Source: Lachnospiraceae bacterium
Lineage (GTDB): Bacteria; Bacillota; Clostridia; Lachnospirales; Lachnospiraceae
Direction: 5' to 3'
Length of the DNA: 64,000 bases
NCBI GenBank assembly: GCA_024696615.1
Contig: JAILGS010000002.1
Span: 33,128 to 97,127, forward strand
A program made the position numbers and the translations under genes. The notes beneath the pieces were generated by a model that did no database searches, was not told the origin of the DNA, and saw only the letters and a list, made by a program, of their open reading frames with translations. Positions within the stretch are counted from its first letter, which is position 1. Each line of letters begins with the position of its first letter. Positions 2,535-64,000 of this stretch are shown here, piece after piece.

Positions 2535-2537
2535 GCG

Positions 2538-2874
2538 TGGACCTGAGGGGAATCGAACCCCTGTCCAAAGCACATTCCATTGTACTTCTACAAGTTTATT
2601 CTGTTCTTTGACATTCCCTCCGTGGCACGAAAGCAGACATTCTTACCACTTTAGTAGCTTCATGATACGCCCGTGGGTGCAAAGCTTAGCCCATGTCGTT
2701 TCCTACATGTTCGATGCCTGGGTTCTAAAGTGTAGGTGCTCTAGATCAGACAGCTGCCATTAGGCAGCGTATGCTAAATTATCTTCAGCGTTTATATTTA
2801 TTGTGGAATTTAACGCATCACCCTGCGACTTGCTTCTCCAACTTCCTATACCCTGTCGAAACCTGTACAAGCCC
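2538..2874 (-). ncRNA. ssrA: tmRNA (SsrA)
   Basis: Minus strand starts GGGCTTGTACAGGTTTCGACAGGG and ends GACAGGGGTTCGATTCCCCTCAGGTCCA; acceptor stem GGGCUUG/CAGGUCC pairs with wobbles; tag reading frame AEDNLAYAA-stop at 2760-2789; CCA not encoded. Confidence 0.95.
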
Positions 2875-3027: not shown

Positions 3028-3939
3028 ATGACATTGAATCAATTACGTTATGCCATTACTGTGGCAGGCAGTAATTCCATGAATGAGGCTGCCAAAGCTT
3101 TATTCGTTTCCCAGCCAAGTCTTTCTGCGGCGATTCGGGAATTGGAAGAGGAAGTGGGTTGTGAAATTTTCTTTCGAACCAACCGAGGAATCTCCGTAAC
3201 ACCGGAGGGAAAGGTATTTTTAGGGTATGCCAGACAGGTGGTAGAGCAGTATGCCCTATTAGAGGACCGGTATATTAGTAAGAATAATATCCGGGGACGA
3301 TTTAGCGTATCCATGCAGCATTATACCTTTGCGGTGAATGCCTTCGTGGAATTAACCCAACAGTATGATTTAGAACAGTATGATTTTTCTGTATCGGAAA
3401 CAAAAACCAGTGAAGTGATCGATCATGTGAAGAATTTTCGAAGTGAGCTGGGAGTTTTATATCGCAGTGATTTTAACCGGGCGGTATTGGATAAGATCTT
3501 TCATGATCAGGGACTGGAATTCCTTCCATTATTTGAATGCAATATTTACGCATATCTTTGTAAGTCCCATCCTTTAGCCAAGAAAAAGAAGGTAACCCTT
3601 GAAGAATTGGCAGAATATCCTTGTCTTGCCTTTGATCAGGGGGAGAATAATTCCTTCTACTATGCGGAGGAGCCATTTAGTACCTATCCATATAAGAAGG
3701 TGATTCATGTCAGTGACCGTGCCACCATCTTAAATCTCTTTGTGGGAGTGAATGGATTTACGCTATGTTCGGGCATTATCTGTGAGGACTTAAATGGTAA
3801 GGATTACTGTGCCATTCGTGTGGATACCAAAGATCGGATGGAAATCGGAGTCATTAAGCGCAAGGATATTCCCCTTTCCACCATGGGAAGTCAGTATATT
3901 GAAGCCCTTTCCAAATACAAGGAAAAGCGCCTAAAATAG
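3028..3939 (+). CDS. LysR-family transcriptional regulator
   Basis: N-terminal MTLNQLRYAITVAGSNSMNEAAKALFVSQPSLSAAIRELEEEVG; start at 3028 preceded by AGGGGG. Confidence 0.92.
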   Translation: MTLNQLRYAITVAGSNSMNEAAKALFVSQPSLSAAIRELEEEVGCEIFFRTNRGISVTPEGKVFLGYARQVVEQYALLEDRYISKNNIRGRFSVSMQHYTFAVNAFVELTQQYDLEQYDFSVSETKTSEVIDHVKNFRSELGVLYRSDFNRAVLDKIFHDQGLEFLPLFECNIYAYLCKSHPLAKKKKVTLEELAEYPCLAFDQGENNSFYYAEEPFSTYPYKKVIHVSDRATILNLFVGVNGFTLCSGIICEDLNGKDYCAIRVDTKDRMEIGVIKRKDIPLSTMGSQYIEALSKYKEKRLK

Positions 3940-4074
3940 GCATATGGGGTTTGATAAAACTTTCACTAATATATTGAATTTGCAGAGGCAAAATAGTAAA
4001 ATATATGCGTTATCAAAGGGGTTTTCGCCAGTGGGAACAATGGATGAAAAGCCCGGGATGGGAGGATGTGCACC

Positions 4075-5133
4075 ATGGGAAATGAACGTTATGTGGCTTA
4101 TGTAAGCAGTTATACCAATAATAGCAAATCGAATGGCGAAGGAATTCATATCTATGATATGGATGTGGAAAAGGGCCGTGTGGAACTTCGCAGTGCGGTG
4201 AAGATTAATAATTCATCCTATGTGATCTTGTCAGCCAAGGGTAATTACCTGTATTCCATCTGTGATGAGGGTGTTATCAGCTATGATATTGATGGGGATG
4301 GCAATCTGATTTTTAAGAATTTGGCTTCCATTAATGGCATGCGAGGGTGTCATCTGTCCACCAATCGGGATAATACCTACCTTTTCGTATCTGGCTATCA
4401 TGACGGAAAGCTGACGGTGCTTCGAATTAACGAAGATGGCTCCGTGGGAGAGATTACGGATGAAATCTTCCATGCGGGTACGGGTAGTATTGCGGATCGT
4501 TCCTTCCGTCCCCATATTTCCTGTGCGGTACTGACTCCGGATGAGAAGTATCTGTGCGTATGTGACCAGGGAATTGATCTTGTGAAGGTCTATAGTTTTA
4601 ATAAGAACAGTGGAAAGCTTCGGTTAGAGGATATTGTCAGAGTGCCACTTGAGTCCGCTCCAAGATCCATGGTTTTTTCTCAGGATGGAAAATATGCCTA
4701 CATATTATGTGAATTAAAGAATTGTATTAATGTATATCATTATGATCCGGAAGCGAAAGAGACTTTTGAATTTATTCAGAATATCTTTACGGTACGAAAG
4801 AAGCATCAGCAGAATACGGCAGCTGCTTCCTTCCGCTTCTCCTTAAATTACAATCATCTGTTTTGTACCAATTCCGGGGATGATACCCTCACCATCTATA
4901 ATGTGGATAAGAAGACGGGGCTTCTTACCATGAATTCCTCTCTGCCGATCAGTGGGGATTTTCCTAAGGATGTGTGTGTCTTCCCAGATGGTAAGCATGT
5001 GATTTCCGTGAATCTGGAGAGTAATTCTTTAACAACTTTCTCCATTAATTACGCGAAGGGATTGATTGTGATGAATGGAAAGGAACAGCATATTATTCAG
5101 CCGAATAATATGATCATCAAAAAATTAGAATAA
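4075..5133 (+). CDS. Lactonase family beta-propeller protein (6-phosphogluconolactonase-like)
   Basis: MGNERYVAYVSSYT...PHISCAVLTPDEKYLCVCDQGIDLVKVYSF...GDFPKDVCVFPDGKHV; GGAGG at 4061-4065 favours ATG 4075. Confidence 0.8.
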   Translation: MGNERYVAYVSSYTNNSKSNGEGIHIYDMDVEKGRVELRSAVKINNSSYVILSAKGNYLYSICDEGVISYDIDGDGNLIFKNLASINGMRGCHLSTNRDNTYLFVSGYHDGKLTVLRINEDGSVGEITDEIFHAGTGSIADRSFRPHISCAVLTPDEKYLCVCDQGIDLVKVYSFNKNSGKLRLEDIVRVPLESAPRSMVFSQDGKYAYILCELKNCINVYHYDPEAKETFEFIQNIFTVRKKHQQNTAAASFRFSLNYNHLFCTNSGDDTLTIYNVDKKTGLLTMNSSLPISGDFPKDVCVFPDGKHVISVNLESNSLTTFSINYAKGLIVMNGKEQHIIQPNNMIIKKLE

Positions 5134-6563: not shown

Positions 6564-8048
6564 ATGAGTAAGGTTAGAACAAGATTTGCACCAAGTCCTA
6601 CAGGCAGAATGCATGTGGGAAATTTAAGAACTGCATTATATGCATATCTGATTGCTAAGCATGAGGATGGAGATTTCCTCCTTCGTATTGAGGATACGGA
6701 TCAGGAACGTCTGGTGGAAGGTGCTGTGGATATTATCTATCGTACCATGGAGAAGACCGGTTTAAAGCATGATGAGGGTCCGGATTGTCCTGGCGATTGT
6801 GGCCCATATGTACAGAGCGAGCGTGTGAATGCTGGAATTTATCGCAAGTATGCACAGATGTTAATTGATAAGGGGGAGGCATATTATTGCTTCTGTGACA
6901 AGGAGCGTTTGGCTTCCTTAACGACCACCGTTGCCGGGGAAGATGAGGAAGAGGGCGAGTCCAAGCAGATTACTGTATATGATAAGCATTGTCTTTCCTT
7001 ATCCAAGGAAGAAGTGGAAGCAAATCTTGCAGCTGGAAAGCCTTATGTGATCCGTCAGAATAATCCTACGGAAGGAACAACCACCTTCCATGATGAATTA
7101 TATGGAGATATCTCCGTGGATAATTCAGAGCTTGATGATATGATCTTAATTAAGTCCGATGGCTTCCCAACTTATAACTTTGCCAATGTGGTGGACGATC
7201 ATCTCATGGGAATTACCCATGTGGTTCGTGGTAATGAGTATCTTTCTTCTTCTCCAAAGTACAACCGTCTTTATGAGGCTTTTGGATGGGAAGTGCCTAA
7301 GTATATTCACTGTCCATTAATTACCAATGAGGAGCATAAGAAGCTTTCTAAGAGAAGTGGACATTCCTCCTATGAGGATTTATTGGAGCAGGGATTTGTA
7401 TCCGAGGCCATTGTGAATTATGTGGCTTTATGCGGATGGAGTCCGGATTCCAATGAGGAGATCTTCTCTTTAGAGGAATTATGCAAGGAATTTGATTTCC
7501 ATCGAATTGGTAAGAGCCCTGCCGTCTTTGATATGGCAAAGCTTCGCTGGATGAATGGAGAATATATTAAGGCCATGGATAATGAGAAGTACTATGCGAT
7601 GGCTCTTCCATACATTCAGGAAGTGGTTCATAAGGATTATGATTTAAAGAAGATTGCGGATCTGGTAAAGACCCGTATTGAAGTATTCCCAGATATTAAG
7701 GAGCATATTGATTTCTTCGAAGAACTTCCAGAGTATGATATTGCTATGTATACTCATAAGAAGATGAAGACCAATACGGAGATTTCCCTGGAGTCCTTAC
7801 AGGGCGTGCTTCCATTGTTAGAGAACTGGAATGATTATTCCATGAATAGCCTGCATGACTTAGTCATGGGTTATATTGAAGGCGTGGGTGTGAAGAATGG
7901 TACCGTTCTTTGGCCACTTCGTACCGCCGTTTCCGGAAAGCAGATGACTCCTGGTGGAGCCTTCGAAATTATGGAGATCCTTGGAAAGGACGAATCTCTT
8001 CGTCGAATCCGTAAGGGTATCGAATTATTACAGGCAGCTTTAGCATAA
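6564..8048 (+). CDS. gltX: Glutamyl-tRNA synthetase (start 6549 or 6564)
   Basis: [33 protein letters not shown] motif. Confidence 0.95.
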
Positions 8049-8134: not shown

Positions 8135-9976
8135 ATGAAGTTCAACGAATCTCAGTTGACTGCAATTTCTCACCGGAATGGTCCAGCACTTGTTCTTGCG
8201 GGGCCTGGCTCCGGCAAGACTGCAGTTGTCACCCATCGAGTGAAAGCTCTTATTACCGAGCAGAATGTCAATCCCGGAAATATTCTTGTGATCACCTTTA
8301 CTAAGGCAGCAGCCAAGGAAATGAAGGAACGATTTTTAAAATTGATGCAGGGCAGTGGCCAGGGCGTGATGTTTGGTACATTTCACGGCGTCTTTTTTAC
8401 GATTCTTCGCCATGCCTATCATTACAATGCGGAAAATATTATTCGGGAAGAAGAACAACTGAATATTTTACGACGAATCATTAGCCGGCTGGGAATGGAA
8501 TATGATAATGAGAAGGATTTTTTAACCAATATCCTTGCAGAAATCAGTAGCTGTAAGGGGGAGGGAATGAATCTTTCCAATTATTATGCCACCAATTGTG
8601 CCAGTGAAGCCTTTCGTTCCATCTATCGGGAATATGACCTTGCACTGCGCAGGATGCGAAAGATTGACTTTGACGATATGATTCTCTACACCTACGAACT
8701 GTTAAAGGAGCGAAAGGATCTGCGCAAAGCCTGGCAGGAGAAGTTTCGCTATATTCTTATTGATGAATTCCAGGATATTAATCATATGCAATATGAGGTG
8801 GTAAAGCTCCTTCTTGGTAAGGAGGAGAATTTATTCGTGGTGGGGGATGATGACCAGAGTATCTACTCCTTCCGTGGGGCAAGACCGGAGATTATGTTAA
8901 ATTACCGGAAGGATTTTCCAAAAGCCAGGGTGATTTCCCTTACGGTAAATTACCGCTGTCCACAGCGGGTGGTAAAAGAAGCAGGAGCCTTGATTGCCCA
9001 CAATGAGAAGCGTTATGCCAAGAAGATTACCGCCCATCGAACAGAGGATGCGCCTGTAATCTGGCGAAGGTTTACGGATGTGCATGAAGAAGCCATGGAT
9101 TTTATTGAGCATGTACGATTGCATCATAAAGAAGGTGGCTCCTACAATGATTTCGCCCTGTTAACCCGCACCAATGATGGGGCCAGATATTATTTGGAAA
9201 AGATGATGGAATATAATATTCCCTTTCGGGCCAAGGATACCATTCCAAGTATTTATAATCATTGGATTGCCAAAAATATCATGGCCTATATTAATCTCGC
9301 CCTTGGAAATCGGGATCGGAATGTATTCTTACAGATTATGAATAAACCAAAGCGCTATATCGGTCGAGATGTGTTAATGAGTCCCCTGGTGGATTTTGAT
9401 GAGATCCGGGAAGCCTATCGCAATGATCGGGCCTGGATGTTGGAGCGGATTGACCGGTTCGAAGATGACCTTACGATTTTATCCCGCTTAAATCCCTATG
9501 CAGGAATTAATTATATTCGTCGGGGCATTGGATATGATGAGTATTTGGAAGAATATGCCAGGGAGATGAATTTAAATCCGGAGGAACTCTTCTTAGTATT
9601 GAATGAATTACAGGAGTCCGCCCGGGAATTTAATGATTATCGCCAATGGTTCCAACATATTGAAGCTTATGAGGAAACCATTCAGAAAAAGAATGCTAAA
9701 GGTGGAGAGGTCTTAGAAGAGGCGGTGAATGTGGTTACCATGCATGGGGCCAAAGGCTTAGAATTCCCACTGGTGTATATCTTAGATGCCAATGAGGATG
9801 TGATTCCTTATCGGAAGGCCATCTTAAATGATGAGGTGGAAGAGGAGCGGCGGATGTTTTATGTGGCCATGACCAGAACCACGAAGGAATTACATATTAG
9901 CTGTGTTCGTACTAGATTTAATAAGGCCATGGAGCCTTCCAGATTTATTGAAGAAGCCAGGGGAACGGCCCTTTAG
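8135..9976 (+). CDS. UvrD/PcrA-type ATP-dependent DNA helicase
   Basis: LAGPGSGKTAVVTHRV, LIDEFQDINHMQYEVVKLL, VGDDDQSIYSFRGA, TMHGAKGLEFPLVYI, RRMFYVAMTR. Confidence 0.92.
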   Translation: MKFNESQLTAISHRNGPALVLAGPGSGKTAVVTHRVKALITEQNVNPGNILVITFTKAAAKEMKERFLKLMQGSGQGVMFGTFHGVFFTILRHAYHYNAENIIREEEQLNILRRIISRLGMEYDNEKDFLTNILAEISSCKGEGMNLSNYYATNCASEAFRSIYREYDLALRRMRKIDFDDMILYTYELLKERKDLRKAWQEKFRYILIDEFQDINHMQYEVVKLLLGKEENLFVVGDDDQSIYSFRGARPEIMLNYRKDFPKARVISLTVNYRCPQRVVKEAGALIAHNEKRYAKKITAHRTEDAPVIWRRFTDVHEEAMDFIEHVRLHHKEGGSYNDFALLTRTNDGARYYLEKMMEYNIPFRAKDTIPSIYNHWIAKNIMAYINLALGNRDRNVFLQIMNKPKRYIGRDVLMSPLVDFDEIREAYRNDRAWMLERIDRFEDDLTILSRLNPYAGINYIRRGIGYDEYLEEYAREMNLNPEELFLVLNELQESAREFNDYRQWFQHIEAYEETIQKKNAKGGEVLEEAVNVVTMHGAKGLEFPLVYILDANEDVIPYRKAILNDEVEEERRMFYVAMTRTTKELHISCVRTRFNKAMEPSRFIEEARGTAL

Positions 9977-39630: not shown

Positions 39631-39717
39631 AATATGACAAAATCAAGGGAAAGAGGGCTCTCTTAGTTGTTTTTTGACTCTTAATATGATAAAATCCCTA
39701 TTTGGAAAAGTGAATAG

Positions 39718-39925
39718 AAGCTTTGGGTGCCTTTGACCGGATCAGAGTGTTTTGCTGCGAATGCCGGGGCCAAAGGGTAAAAGGGAAACAGGTGAAAGTC
39801 CTGTACGATCTCGTCACTGTAATTGCTTAGAAGGATGCAAGAGGCCACTGAAGAAGGATGATATTCCTCTTTGGGAAGGCGCATCTTTTGTTATGGCATA
39901 AGCCAGGAAACCTGCCGAAATGCTT
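39718..39925 (+). promoter_or_regulatory. Cobalamin (B12) riboswitch
   Basis: GGGTGCCTTT...AAAGGGTAAAAGGGAAACAGGTGAAAGTCCTGTACGATCTCGTCACTGTAA...GCCACTG...GGGAAGGCG...AAGCCAGGAAACCTGCC. Confidence 0.93.
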
Positions 39926-40073
39926 GGTACATTAGATCACGAGGAATTGGTCGTGCCGTAAGGAAAGGGGAGAACCCTTTATTTATTGTGCCTATAATCT
40001 TTGTGATATGGGCTTTTTTTATATCCAAAAACCAAAAGAGCCTGTATGAATATATGTTTATAGGAGAGTAATT

Positions 40074-62967: not shown

Positions 62968-63002
62968 TAAAACTTGTATTATTTTTTAGAATCAATTAAA
63001 GA

Positions 63003-63038
63003 AAGCCTACCGATTAATATCGGCAGGCTTTTTTCTTT
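63003..63038 (+). terminator. Intrinsic terminator of feo operon
   Basis: AAGCCTACCGAT-TAAT-ATCGGCAGGCTT + T-run. Confidence 0.88.
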
Positions 63039-63108
63039 ACTTCGGCATATACATTCCCATTTTAAATGTTAAGAATAATAGGTGTTATGGACATTGTTTT
63101 TCTTTCCC

Positions 63109-63592
63109 AAGCCACCCGAAATTTTTTCACACATAGTTTGACATAAAAATCGGGTGGCTTAGATTTGCTTTTTCATCATCTAGCCACCCAACCCATATTT
63201 TAAAACATCTTCAAACTAACTTTGGGTGGCTTAATCAAAAATTTTCGATTCTAAGCCACCCATTTTCTCAATCGCAACAACGCACCAAATTTTTTGGGGT
63301 GGCTTAATCTTTATTTTTACTTTCCAAGCCACACAAAGTCCCTACACTTTTGCGACCCACTTGCTTTCAAAAAGCTTCCGATCGCGTAGTTGTATGTTTT
63401 CGGGTGGCCTGAGACTTGTTTTTCTTTCCCAAGCCACCCGAATTTTTTTTTCACACATCGTTTGGCATAAAAATCGGGTGGCTTAATCTTTATTTTTACC
63501 TTCCAAGCCACACAAAGTCCCTACACTTTCGCAACCCACTTGCTTTCAAAAAGCTTCCGAGCGCGAAGTTGTACGTTTTCGGGTGGCCTGAG
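63109..63592. repeat. Array of six imperfect palindromic units (AAGCCACCC...GGGTGGCTT)
   Basis: Units at 63109-63160, 63181-63232, 63252-63306, 63326-63410, 63431-63484, 63505-63589; units 1/5 and 4/6 are near-identical pairs; AT-rich 17-20 nt spacers. Confidence 0.85.
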
Positions 63593-63762
63593 AATTGTTT
63601 TATATATGCTGTTAAAAATACGGGTAGATGCGTTACGGCGTGGCTATCCGTTATTTGCTTTGGTGGGAATTTAAAAATTCGCATTACGACCAAGAAAAAC
63701 ATATCAACATTATTTCATTTTGCAACAAGCTATATTGAGCCCCAGGTTAGCAGATATATTAC

Positions 63763-63799
63763 ACAGCATCGGATAGTCAAATGTCCGGTGCTGTTTTTA
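63763..63799 (+). terminator. Terminator-like hairpin
   Basis: ACAGCATCGGA...TCCGGTGCTGT + T5. Confidence 0.7.
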
Positions 63800-63886
63800 T
63801 TGAAGATTTAAGCCTACCATATTATAATCGAAGGATGCATGTATGGAATGGATCATGAACCATCATTGCAGCAAGGAGGTAGCAGG

Positions 63887-64000
63887 ATGACAAAGGTATT
63901 AGAAGTAGAAAATATCAGTAAAAGATACCAGGACTTTTATTTGCAGAATGTTTCATTTGCTTTGGAAAAAGGTACGATAACTGGTTTCATAGGTGAGAAC
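63887..64000 (+). CDS. ABC transporter ATP-binding protein, truncated by window end
   Basis: AAGGAGG RBS; MTKVLEVENISKRYQDFYLQNVSFALEKGTITGFIGEN. Confidence 0.8.
   Translation, partial: MTKVLEVENISKRYQDFYLQNVSFALEKGTITGFIGEN

Follow-up and report, generated by a model that had tools for sequence, protein, structure and literature searches.

The usual view of palindrome arrays between genes is that they are selfish REPs or RNA hairpins, and the array found near the end of the window (the whole stretch of 64,000 nucleotides of Lachnospiraceae bacterium DNA analysed here) raises the question of which part of such an array is actually repeated, and for what. The host genome is a 2.0-Mb assembly, 81% complete, in 105 contigs, and the last base of the window is the end of contig C18. 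The array sits 3' of feoA, feoB and a gene for a FeoB-associated Cys-rich protein (Pfam score under the cutoff), with a terminator-like hairpin at 63002-63031 between these genes and the array. The next gene, from about 63839-63888, runs off the contig; its reading resembles an ABC-transporter ATPase, and the Pfam search of its 39-residue fragment gave no match. In the gap between the array and this gene, a strong terminator-like hairpin was observed on the plus strand (63763-63794) with no evident gene directly upstream, and a small transcript or leader may lie at about 63620-63795. Elsewhere in the window, a tmRNA (2535-2874, minus strand) and a cobalamin riboswitch (39709-39933, plus strand) were detected with scores above the Rfam gathering threshold.

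The preliminary description had divided the array into six palindromic units with conserved ends, and six units bounded by AAGCCACMC and GGGTGGCYT are indeed present at 63109-63589 (Table 1). Units 4 and 6 are near copies as reported, 179 bp apart and 85 nt each within a 126-nt pair that is 94% identical, and so are units 1 and 5 (52 and 54 nt), 322 bp apart; the small ORFs over the array had rightly been taken for by-products of the repeat. The length of the unit, however, varies from 52 to 85 nt, whereas all five inter-unit spacers measure exactly 20 nt. In the arm listing of the window array, each GGGTGGCYT is followed by ARGCCACMC 29 bases on, start to start, and therefore the constant element is a 38-nt module and not the unit. 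The repeating part is the 20-nt "spacer" together with its two flanking arms, GGGTGGCYT-N20-ARGCCACMC, and both edges of the array, at 63080 and 63581, are decayed or half modules. The only other host locus with these arms is on contig C82, where it is flanked by an oppA-like gene and by the C-terminus of an Fe-dependent alcohol dehydrogenase; the arm pattern gave nine matches across the whole host genome, every one in the window array or in C82, and a reversed control pattern gave zero. Module length is exactly 38 nt in the five intact modules of the window and in the six of C82. These 11 modules align without gaps, their minimum spanning tree counts at least 85 substitutions and zero indels, and the central AAA is unvarying in all of them. 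The strand that carries the A-tract is identical for all five intact window modules and for the C82 modules.

Table 1. Coordinates of the units and modules of the window array, and of other host arrays and the G001 composite considered with it
Feature	Position	Strand	Remark
Unit 1	63109..63160		52 nt, near copy of unit 5
Unit 2	63181..63232		52 nt
Unit 3	63253..63305		53 nt
Unit 4	63326..63410		85 nt; carries CGACCCACTTGCTTTCA, nearly common to the 52-bp grid family
Unit 5	63431..63484		54 nt
Unit 6	63505..63589		85 nt, near copy of unit 4, 179 bp off
Decayed first module	63080..63117	-	right arm AAGCCACCC intact, left degenerate; interior matches module 63402-63439
Module 1	63152..63189	-	38 nt, A-tract strand reads GGGTGGCTAGATGATGAAAAAGCAAATCTAAGCCACCC
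Module 2	63224..63261	-	38 nt
Module 3	63297..63334	-	38 nt
Module 4	63402..63439	-	38 nt
Module 5	63476..63513	-	38 nt, near copy of module 3
Terminal half module	63581..63618	-	one arm retained, other half gone
Grid arrays	L188:1290-2440 and 7132-7960; L025:1345-2345 and 3400-4330		
Grid arrays	L258:340-1870; L259:1-450; L223:5331-5760		
G001 four-module composite	L338:1903-2148, L343:1628-1873, L353:1276-1521		
Host tandem arrays, periods 48 and 89 bp	L227:5804-5987 and 7149-7473		neither fits whole turns; arms of the 89-bp array CTGAAGCA/TGCTTCAG

Among 396 other family members, the window arms were not found, with the exception of one match in G027. Modules with other arms were found in two congeners and one other genus, laid out as TGGCATAG-N22-CTATGCCA, that is 38 nt when the outer T/A pair is counted. 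In the congener G001, two arrays carry the arms GGCATAG/CTATGCC in tandem, one with a period of 63 and one of 74; a search for this module with at most one mismatch gave 102 forward matches in G001, 21 in G002 and none in G003 or the host, and in G001 the 102 matches are spread over more than 20 contigs (strand-symmetric search). When gaps of 8-37 nt were permitted, only 22-nt gaps occurred among the matches listed. In the stretches retrieved from relatives, 111 of 114 arm pairs stand at one length (36 nt, or 38 nt counting the outer pair), and the central AA is retained in 84 of the 89 distinct GGCATAG modules. The other genus, represented by G009, has six exact modules, with arrays at 61-63, 73-74 and 105 bp. 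In G001, a four-module composite with the spacing 63-84-63 occurs at three loci, which have about 340 bp in common and differ in their flanks; its outer ends appear loosely complementary within each copy. Viral contigs hold no arrays, only single matches per contig, and the plasmid search was empty. A pattern scan of genome contigs returned 116 stretches from unrelated taxa, each with a single palindrome that is apparently there by chance; these were set aside. In G001, a TwoAYGGAY RNA motif (L346:492-658) and a GGCATAG array are about 200 bp apart. Two congeners also carry a repeated terminator-like hairpin, GGGCTGTCGCYT..ARGCGACAGCCC, often near gene ends (L047:7709-7742 and 8262-8295; L048:4265-4298); the GTCGCTT hairpins of congeners resemble ordinary terminator-like elements and were rejected as family members.

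The distances between modules are quantised as well. Start to start, they measure 72, 72, 73, 105, 74 and 105 bp in the window and 94, 83, 73, 115, 73 and 82 bp in C82, and the resulting groups (72-74, 82-83, 94, 105 and 115 bp) are near whole helical turns. The host classes 73, 82.5, 94, 105 and 115 fit 10.3-10.7 bp (R=0.96, p about 0.002); since the window arms occupy only two host loci, the base of this result is about five length classes and, taken alone, the host phasing is suggestive only. In the relatives, where the spacing is 61-63, 73-74, 84-85 or 105 bp, R reaches 0.87 at 10.5 bp (Rayleigh about 1e-10) for 30 non-redundant inter-module sequences (<70% identity) from three non-host genomes and two genera, including a doubtful one of 58 bp that involves a three-mismatch module; as spacers are related, the phasing p-values are approximate. 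When the length classes of all families are pooled, their residues modulo 10.5 fall in seven bins as 12, 0, 0, 0, 0, 2 and 12, and drift would hardly leave the classes between whole turns empty in two genera. As a control, the unrelated 48- and 89-bp tandem arrays of the host, the latter likewise palindromic, are unphased. The phasing of A/T-tracts was not significant in the window array, for which A-tract curvature was rejected (p=0.74), and reached p=0.05 in C82. The anatomy of the module, with its fixed length, its helical quantisation and its recurrence in relatives with other arms, is well supported.

Constant length, a central A-tract and whole-turn spacing together are what same-face binding requires, and a protein-bound DNA platform is therefore favoured. 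We propose, with a confidence that comes close to an even chance without reaching it, that these are BIME-like arrays in which same-face DNA sites serve a putative protein that bends or bridges DNA, the arms being specific to the lineage. The function that we infer would be the following. The 38-bp module would present two inverted half-sites at a fixed distance around an invariant A-tract, in tandem copies of one orientation placed whole turns apart; each module would be bound by a putative protein, probably dimeric, touching both half-sites and the narrow groove of the A-tract, and the whole-turn spacing would bring successive complexes onto one face of the DNA. The array could then nucleate a nucleoprotein structure in which the DNA is bent, looped or bridged, and serve as an architectural element, an insulator or a supercoil sink; most of the gaps concerned have genes in tandem or convergent order on their two sides. 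The neighbour genes are tandem in 18 array gaps, convergent in 5 and divergent in 3 (some of the ORF calls are dubious), with 13 further gaps that have no neighbour orientation, chiefly owing to contig ends. An array would grow when segments of whole-turn length are duplicated (179 bp, as in the duplication seen here, would equal 17 turns) and would be re-seeded by recombination, and each lineage would have its arms altered in step with the specificity of the protein. A more specific proposal, which we consider rather unlikely as it stands, would make the arrays dedicated helically phased platforms for a fast-evolving putative Lachnospiraceae-like architectural protein, the arms and the protein co-evolving and the complexes forming same-face stacks. 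Fixed length and helix-quantised spacing in four genomes and two genera, with changing arms, point to a lattice of protein on DNA, and make the role of intergenic palindrome arrays, long an open question, directly testable. The signature is independent of sequence, consisting of inverted arms at constant length, an A-tract in the centre and spacing in whole turns, and helps to find more arrays.

A serious rival is a selfish, non-autonomous REP/MITE-like element, spread by a putative transposase or recombinase that would recognise the module, in which case the whole-turn spacing would reflect the copying geometry of the enzyme complex and not a host function. The 102 module matches of G001, the 63-84-63 composite in its different flanks, the fast turnover of arms between species and the location of many arrays at contig ends are in agreement with it, and since the dispersed composite shows that arrays can move or be copied, a selfish origin has to be kept in consideration, even if we hold it to be on the unlikely side. 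Against it, Y1_Tnp (PF01797) gave hits in none of four genomes (the host and three congeners, 78-88% complete), with controls positive in 5 of 14, so that the RAYT/IS200-type transposase suggested for a search by the preliminary description did not appear. The window arms stand at only two host loci, the viral contigs are without arrays, no target-site duplication was seen and no insertion footprint was found at the window array.

The likeness to REP/BIME or MITE elements suggested earlier holds in that the arrays are intergenic, palindromic, mosaic and dispersed in relatives, and breaks down at the transposase. In the available text of two studies (PMC2817692, PMC3733652), REP/BIME elements are intergenic palindromes of 20-40 bp forming composite, species-specific mosaic arrays, to which gyrase, IHF and similar proteins are proposed to bind. 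The 38-nt modules of our array are intergenic and fall within the 20-40 bp of extragenic imperfect palindromes, with a copy number, for the window arms, of 11 intact modules spread over two loci of the host, against 102 matches with other arms in G001. The array resembles a BIME and would work like one, but it departs from REPs in three defining points: it has no GTAG/CGTC tag, its ends being GGGTGGCYT and ARGCCACMC; its modules keep one orientation whereas REPs alternate; and its genome has no cognate RAYT. The fixed 38-nt length, the invariant central A-tract and the whole-turn spacing are further differences. As for MITEs, the dispersed G001 composite has a common core and varying flanks, with no target-site duplication identified, whereas at the window array no clear terminal inverted repeat with target-site duplication was seen. 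The BOX element of Streptococcus pneumoniae is, in the available text of its description (PMC3049150), likewise from a Firmicute, modular, intergenic, variable in internal unit number and structured if transcribed; that description sets it apart as a boxA-boxB-boxC composite of unlike parts, whereas our array has one module type on a helical grid. The palindromic motif pairs of Bradyrhizobium japonicum, such as GAATCCAT-N23-ATGGATTC, whose function is given as unknown, share intergenic inverted arms at an exactly constant distance, a variable interior and a position near gene 3' ends, but the available text (PMC5217627) does not describe them as helix-phased arrays or with a central A-tract. 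In the part of the literature searched, whose coverage excludes most subscription journals, no description of the phased module arrangement was found.

Transcription of the array into a multi-hairpin 3' UTR or terminator cluster, which would protect or end the feo operon transcript, is improbable in our judgement. The array lies downstream of feoB, with hairpins followed by T-rich spacers on the feoB strand, and its RNA folds better than shuffled sequences on both strands (z -6.0 and -9.0), but palindromic arrays fold well on either strand, whatever their role. The preliminary description had leaned on covarying inner stems, and this claim fails: the units do not pair better with their own 3' arms than permutation of the arms predicts (observed 122 of 168, expected 122.5, p=0.62), and the inner five pairs show no excess either (permutation p=0.80). 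Between units, the modules are 82.5% paired against 82.1% when shuffled, and in the relatives (67 oriented, 72 distinct modules) no covariation was found, the weak single-pair signals disappearing after clustering at 80% identity. An array without covariation and confined to this locus had been named as the outcome that would speak against the original proposal; covariation is indeed absent, but there is a second host locus and the same architecture in relatives. The Rfam search gave no family at the gathering threshold, only weak sub-threshold matches. The terminator cluster was set aside: the array has only a few, weak terminator-like matches, and upstream of it there is already an ordinary hairpin. 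Helical register is irrelevant to linked RNA hairpins, which have no length or spacing constraint of that sort, and a structured RNA leaves the helical spacing unexplained.

Functionless local amplification, in which a quasi-palindrome would have grown by slippage and unequal recombination and would owe its uniform length to recency, is already disfavoured and slightly more improbable still: recent duplications exist (the 126-nt copies) and the same genome has other, unphased tandem arrays, but the modules, free of indels, are tens of substitutions apart, their length recurs with other arms and in another genus, and non-integer spacings are empty. A degenerate CRISPR or integron-like recombination array, suggested by the alternation of near-constant and variable segments, is hardly credible, since CRISPR has near-identical repeats, unique spacers and other length and spacing rules, whereas here the repeats are strongly diverged and the variable segments duplicated.

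The protein-bound platform reading brings in a second host family, built on a 52-bp grid and present at no fewer than seven loci (contigs C102 and C31 with two arrays each, C12, C30 and C88). The host survey is a sample of 547,385 bases, roughly 30% of the host, in which C82 and C31 were chosen beforehand and C30 and C88 added later; arrays outside it were reached only via the motifs searched. Half-sites RYCAC alternate with their complement, 22 bp apart in 42 of 50 forward-to-reverse gaps and 30 bp apart in 39 of 48 reverse-to-forward gaps, nearly without register shift though the rows differ. The A/T-tracts of this family (class B) are phased at 10.4 bp, a signal that follows in part from the 52-bp period. 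The arrays flank hpf, pfkA, dnaE and other genes, and both unit orientations share one register. A tentative kinship with the window arms is suggested by a similar half-site and one shared stretch; as only the CRACCCACTTGCTTTCA-like stretch exceeds chance (window p<0.01 at 11-12-mers; C82 not significant), common ancestry is no more than tentative. Beside one 52-bp array, at L188:1078-1225, blocks of ACATGCTTTT/TCATCCTTCA follow one another at an exact period of 10/20 bp.
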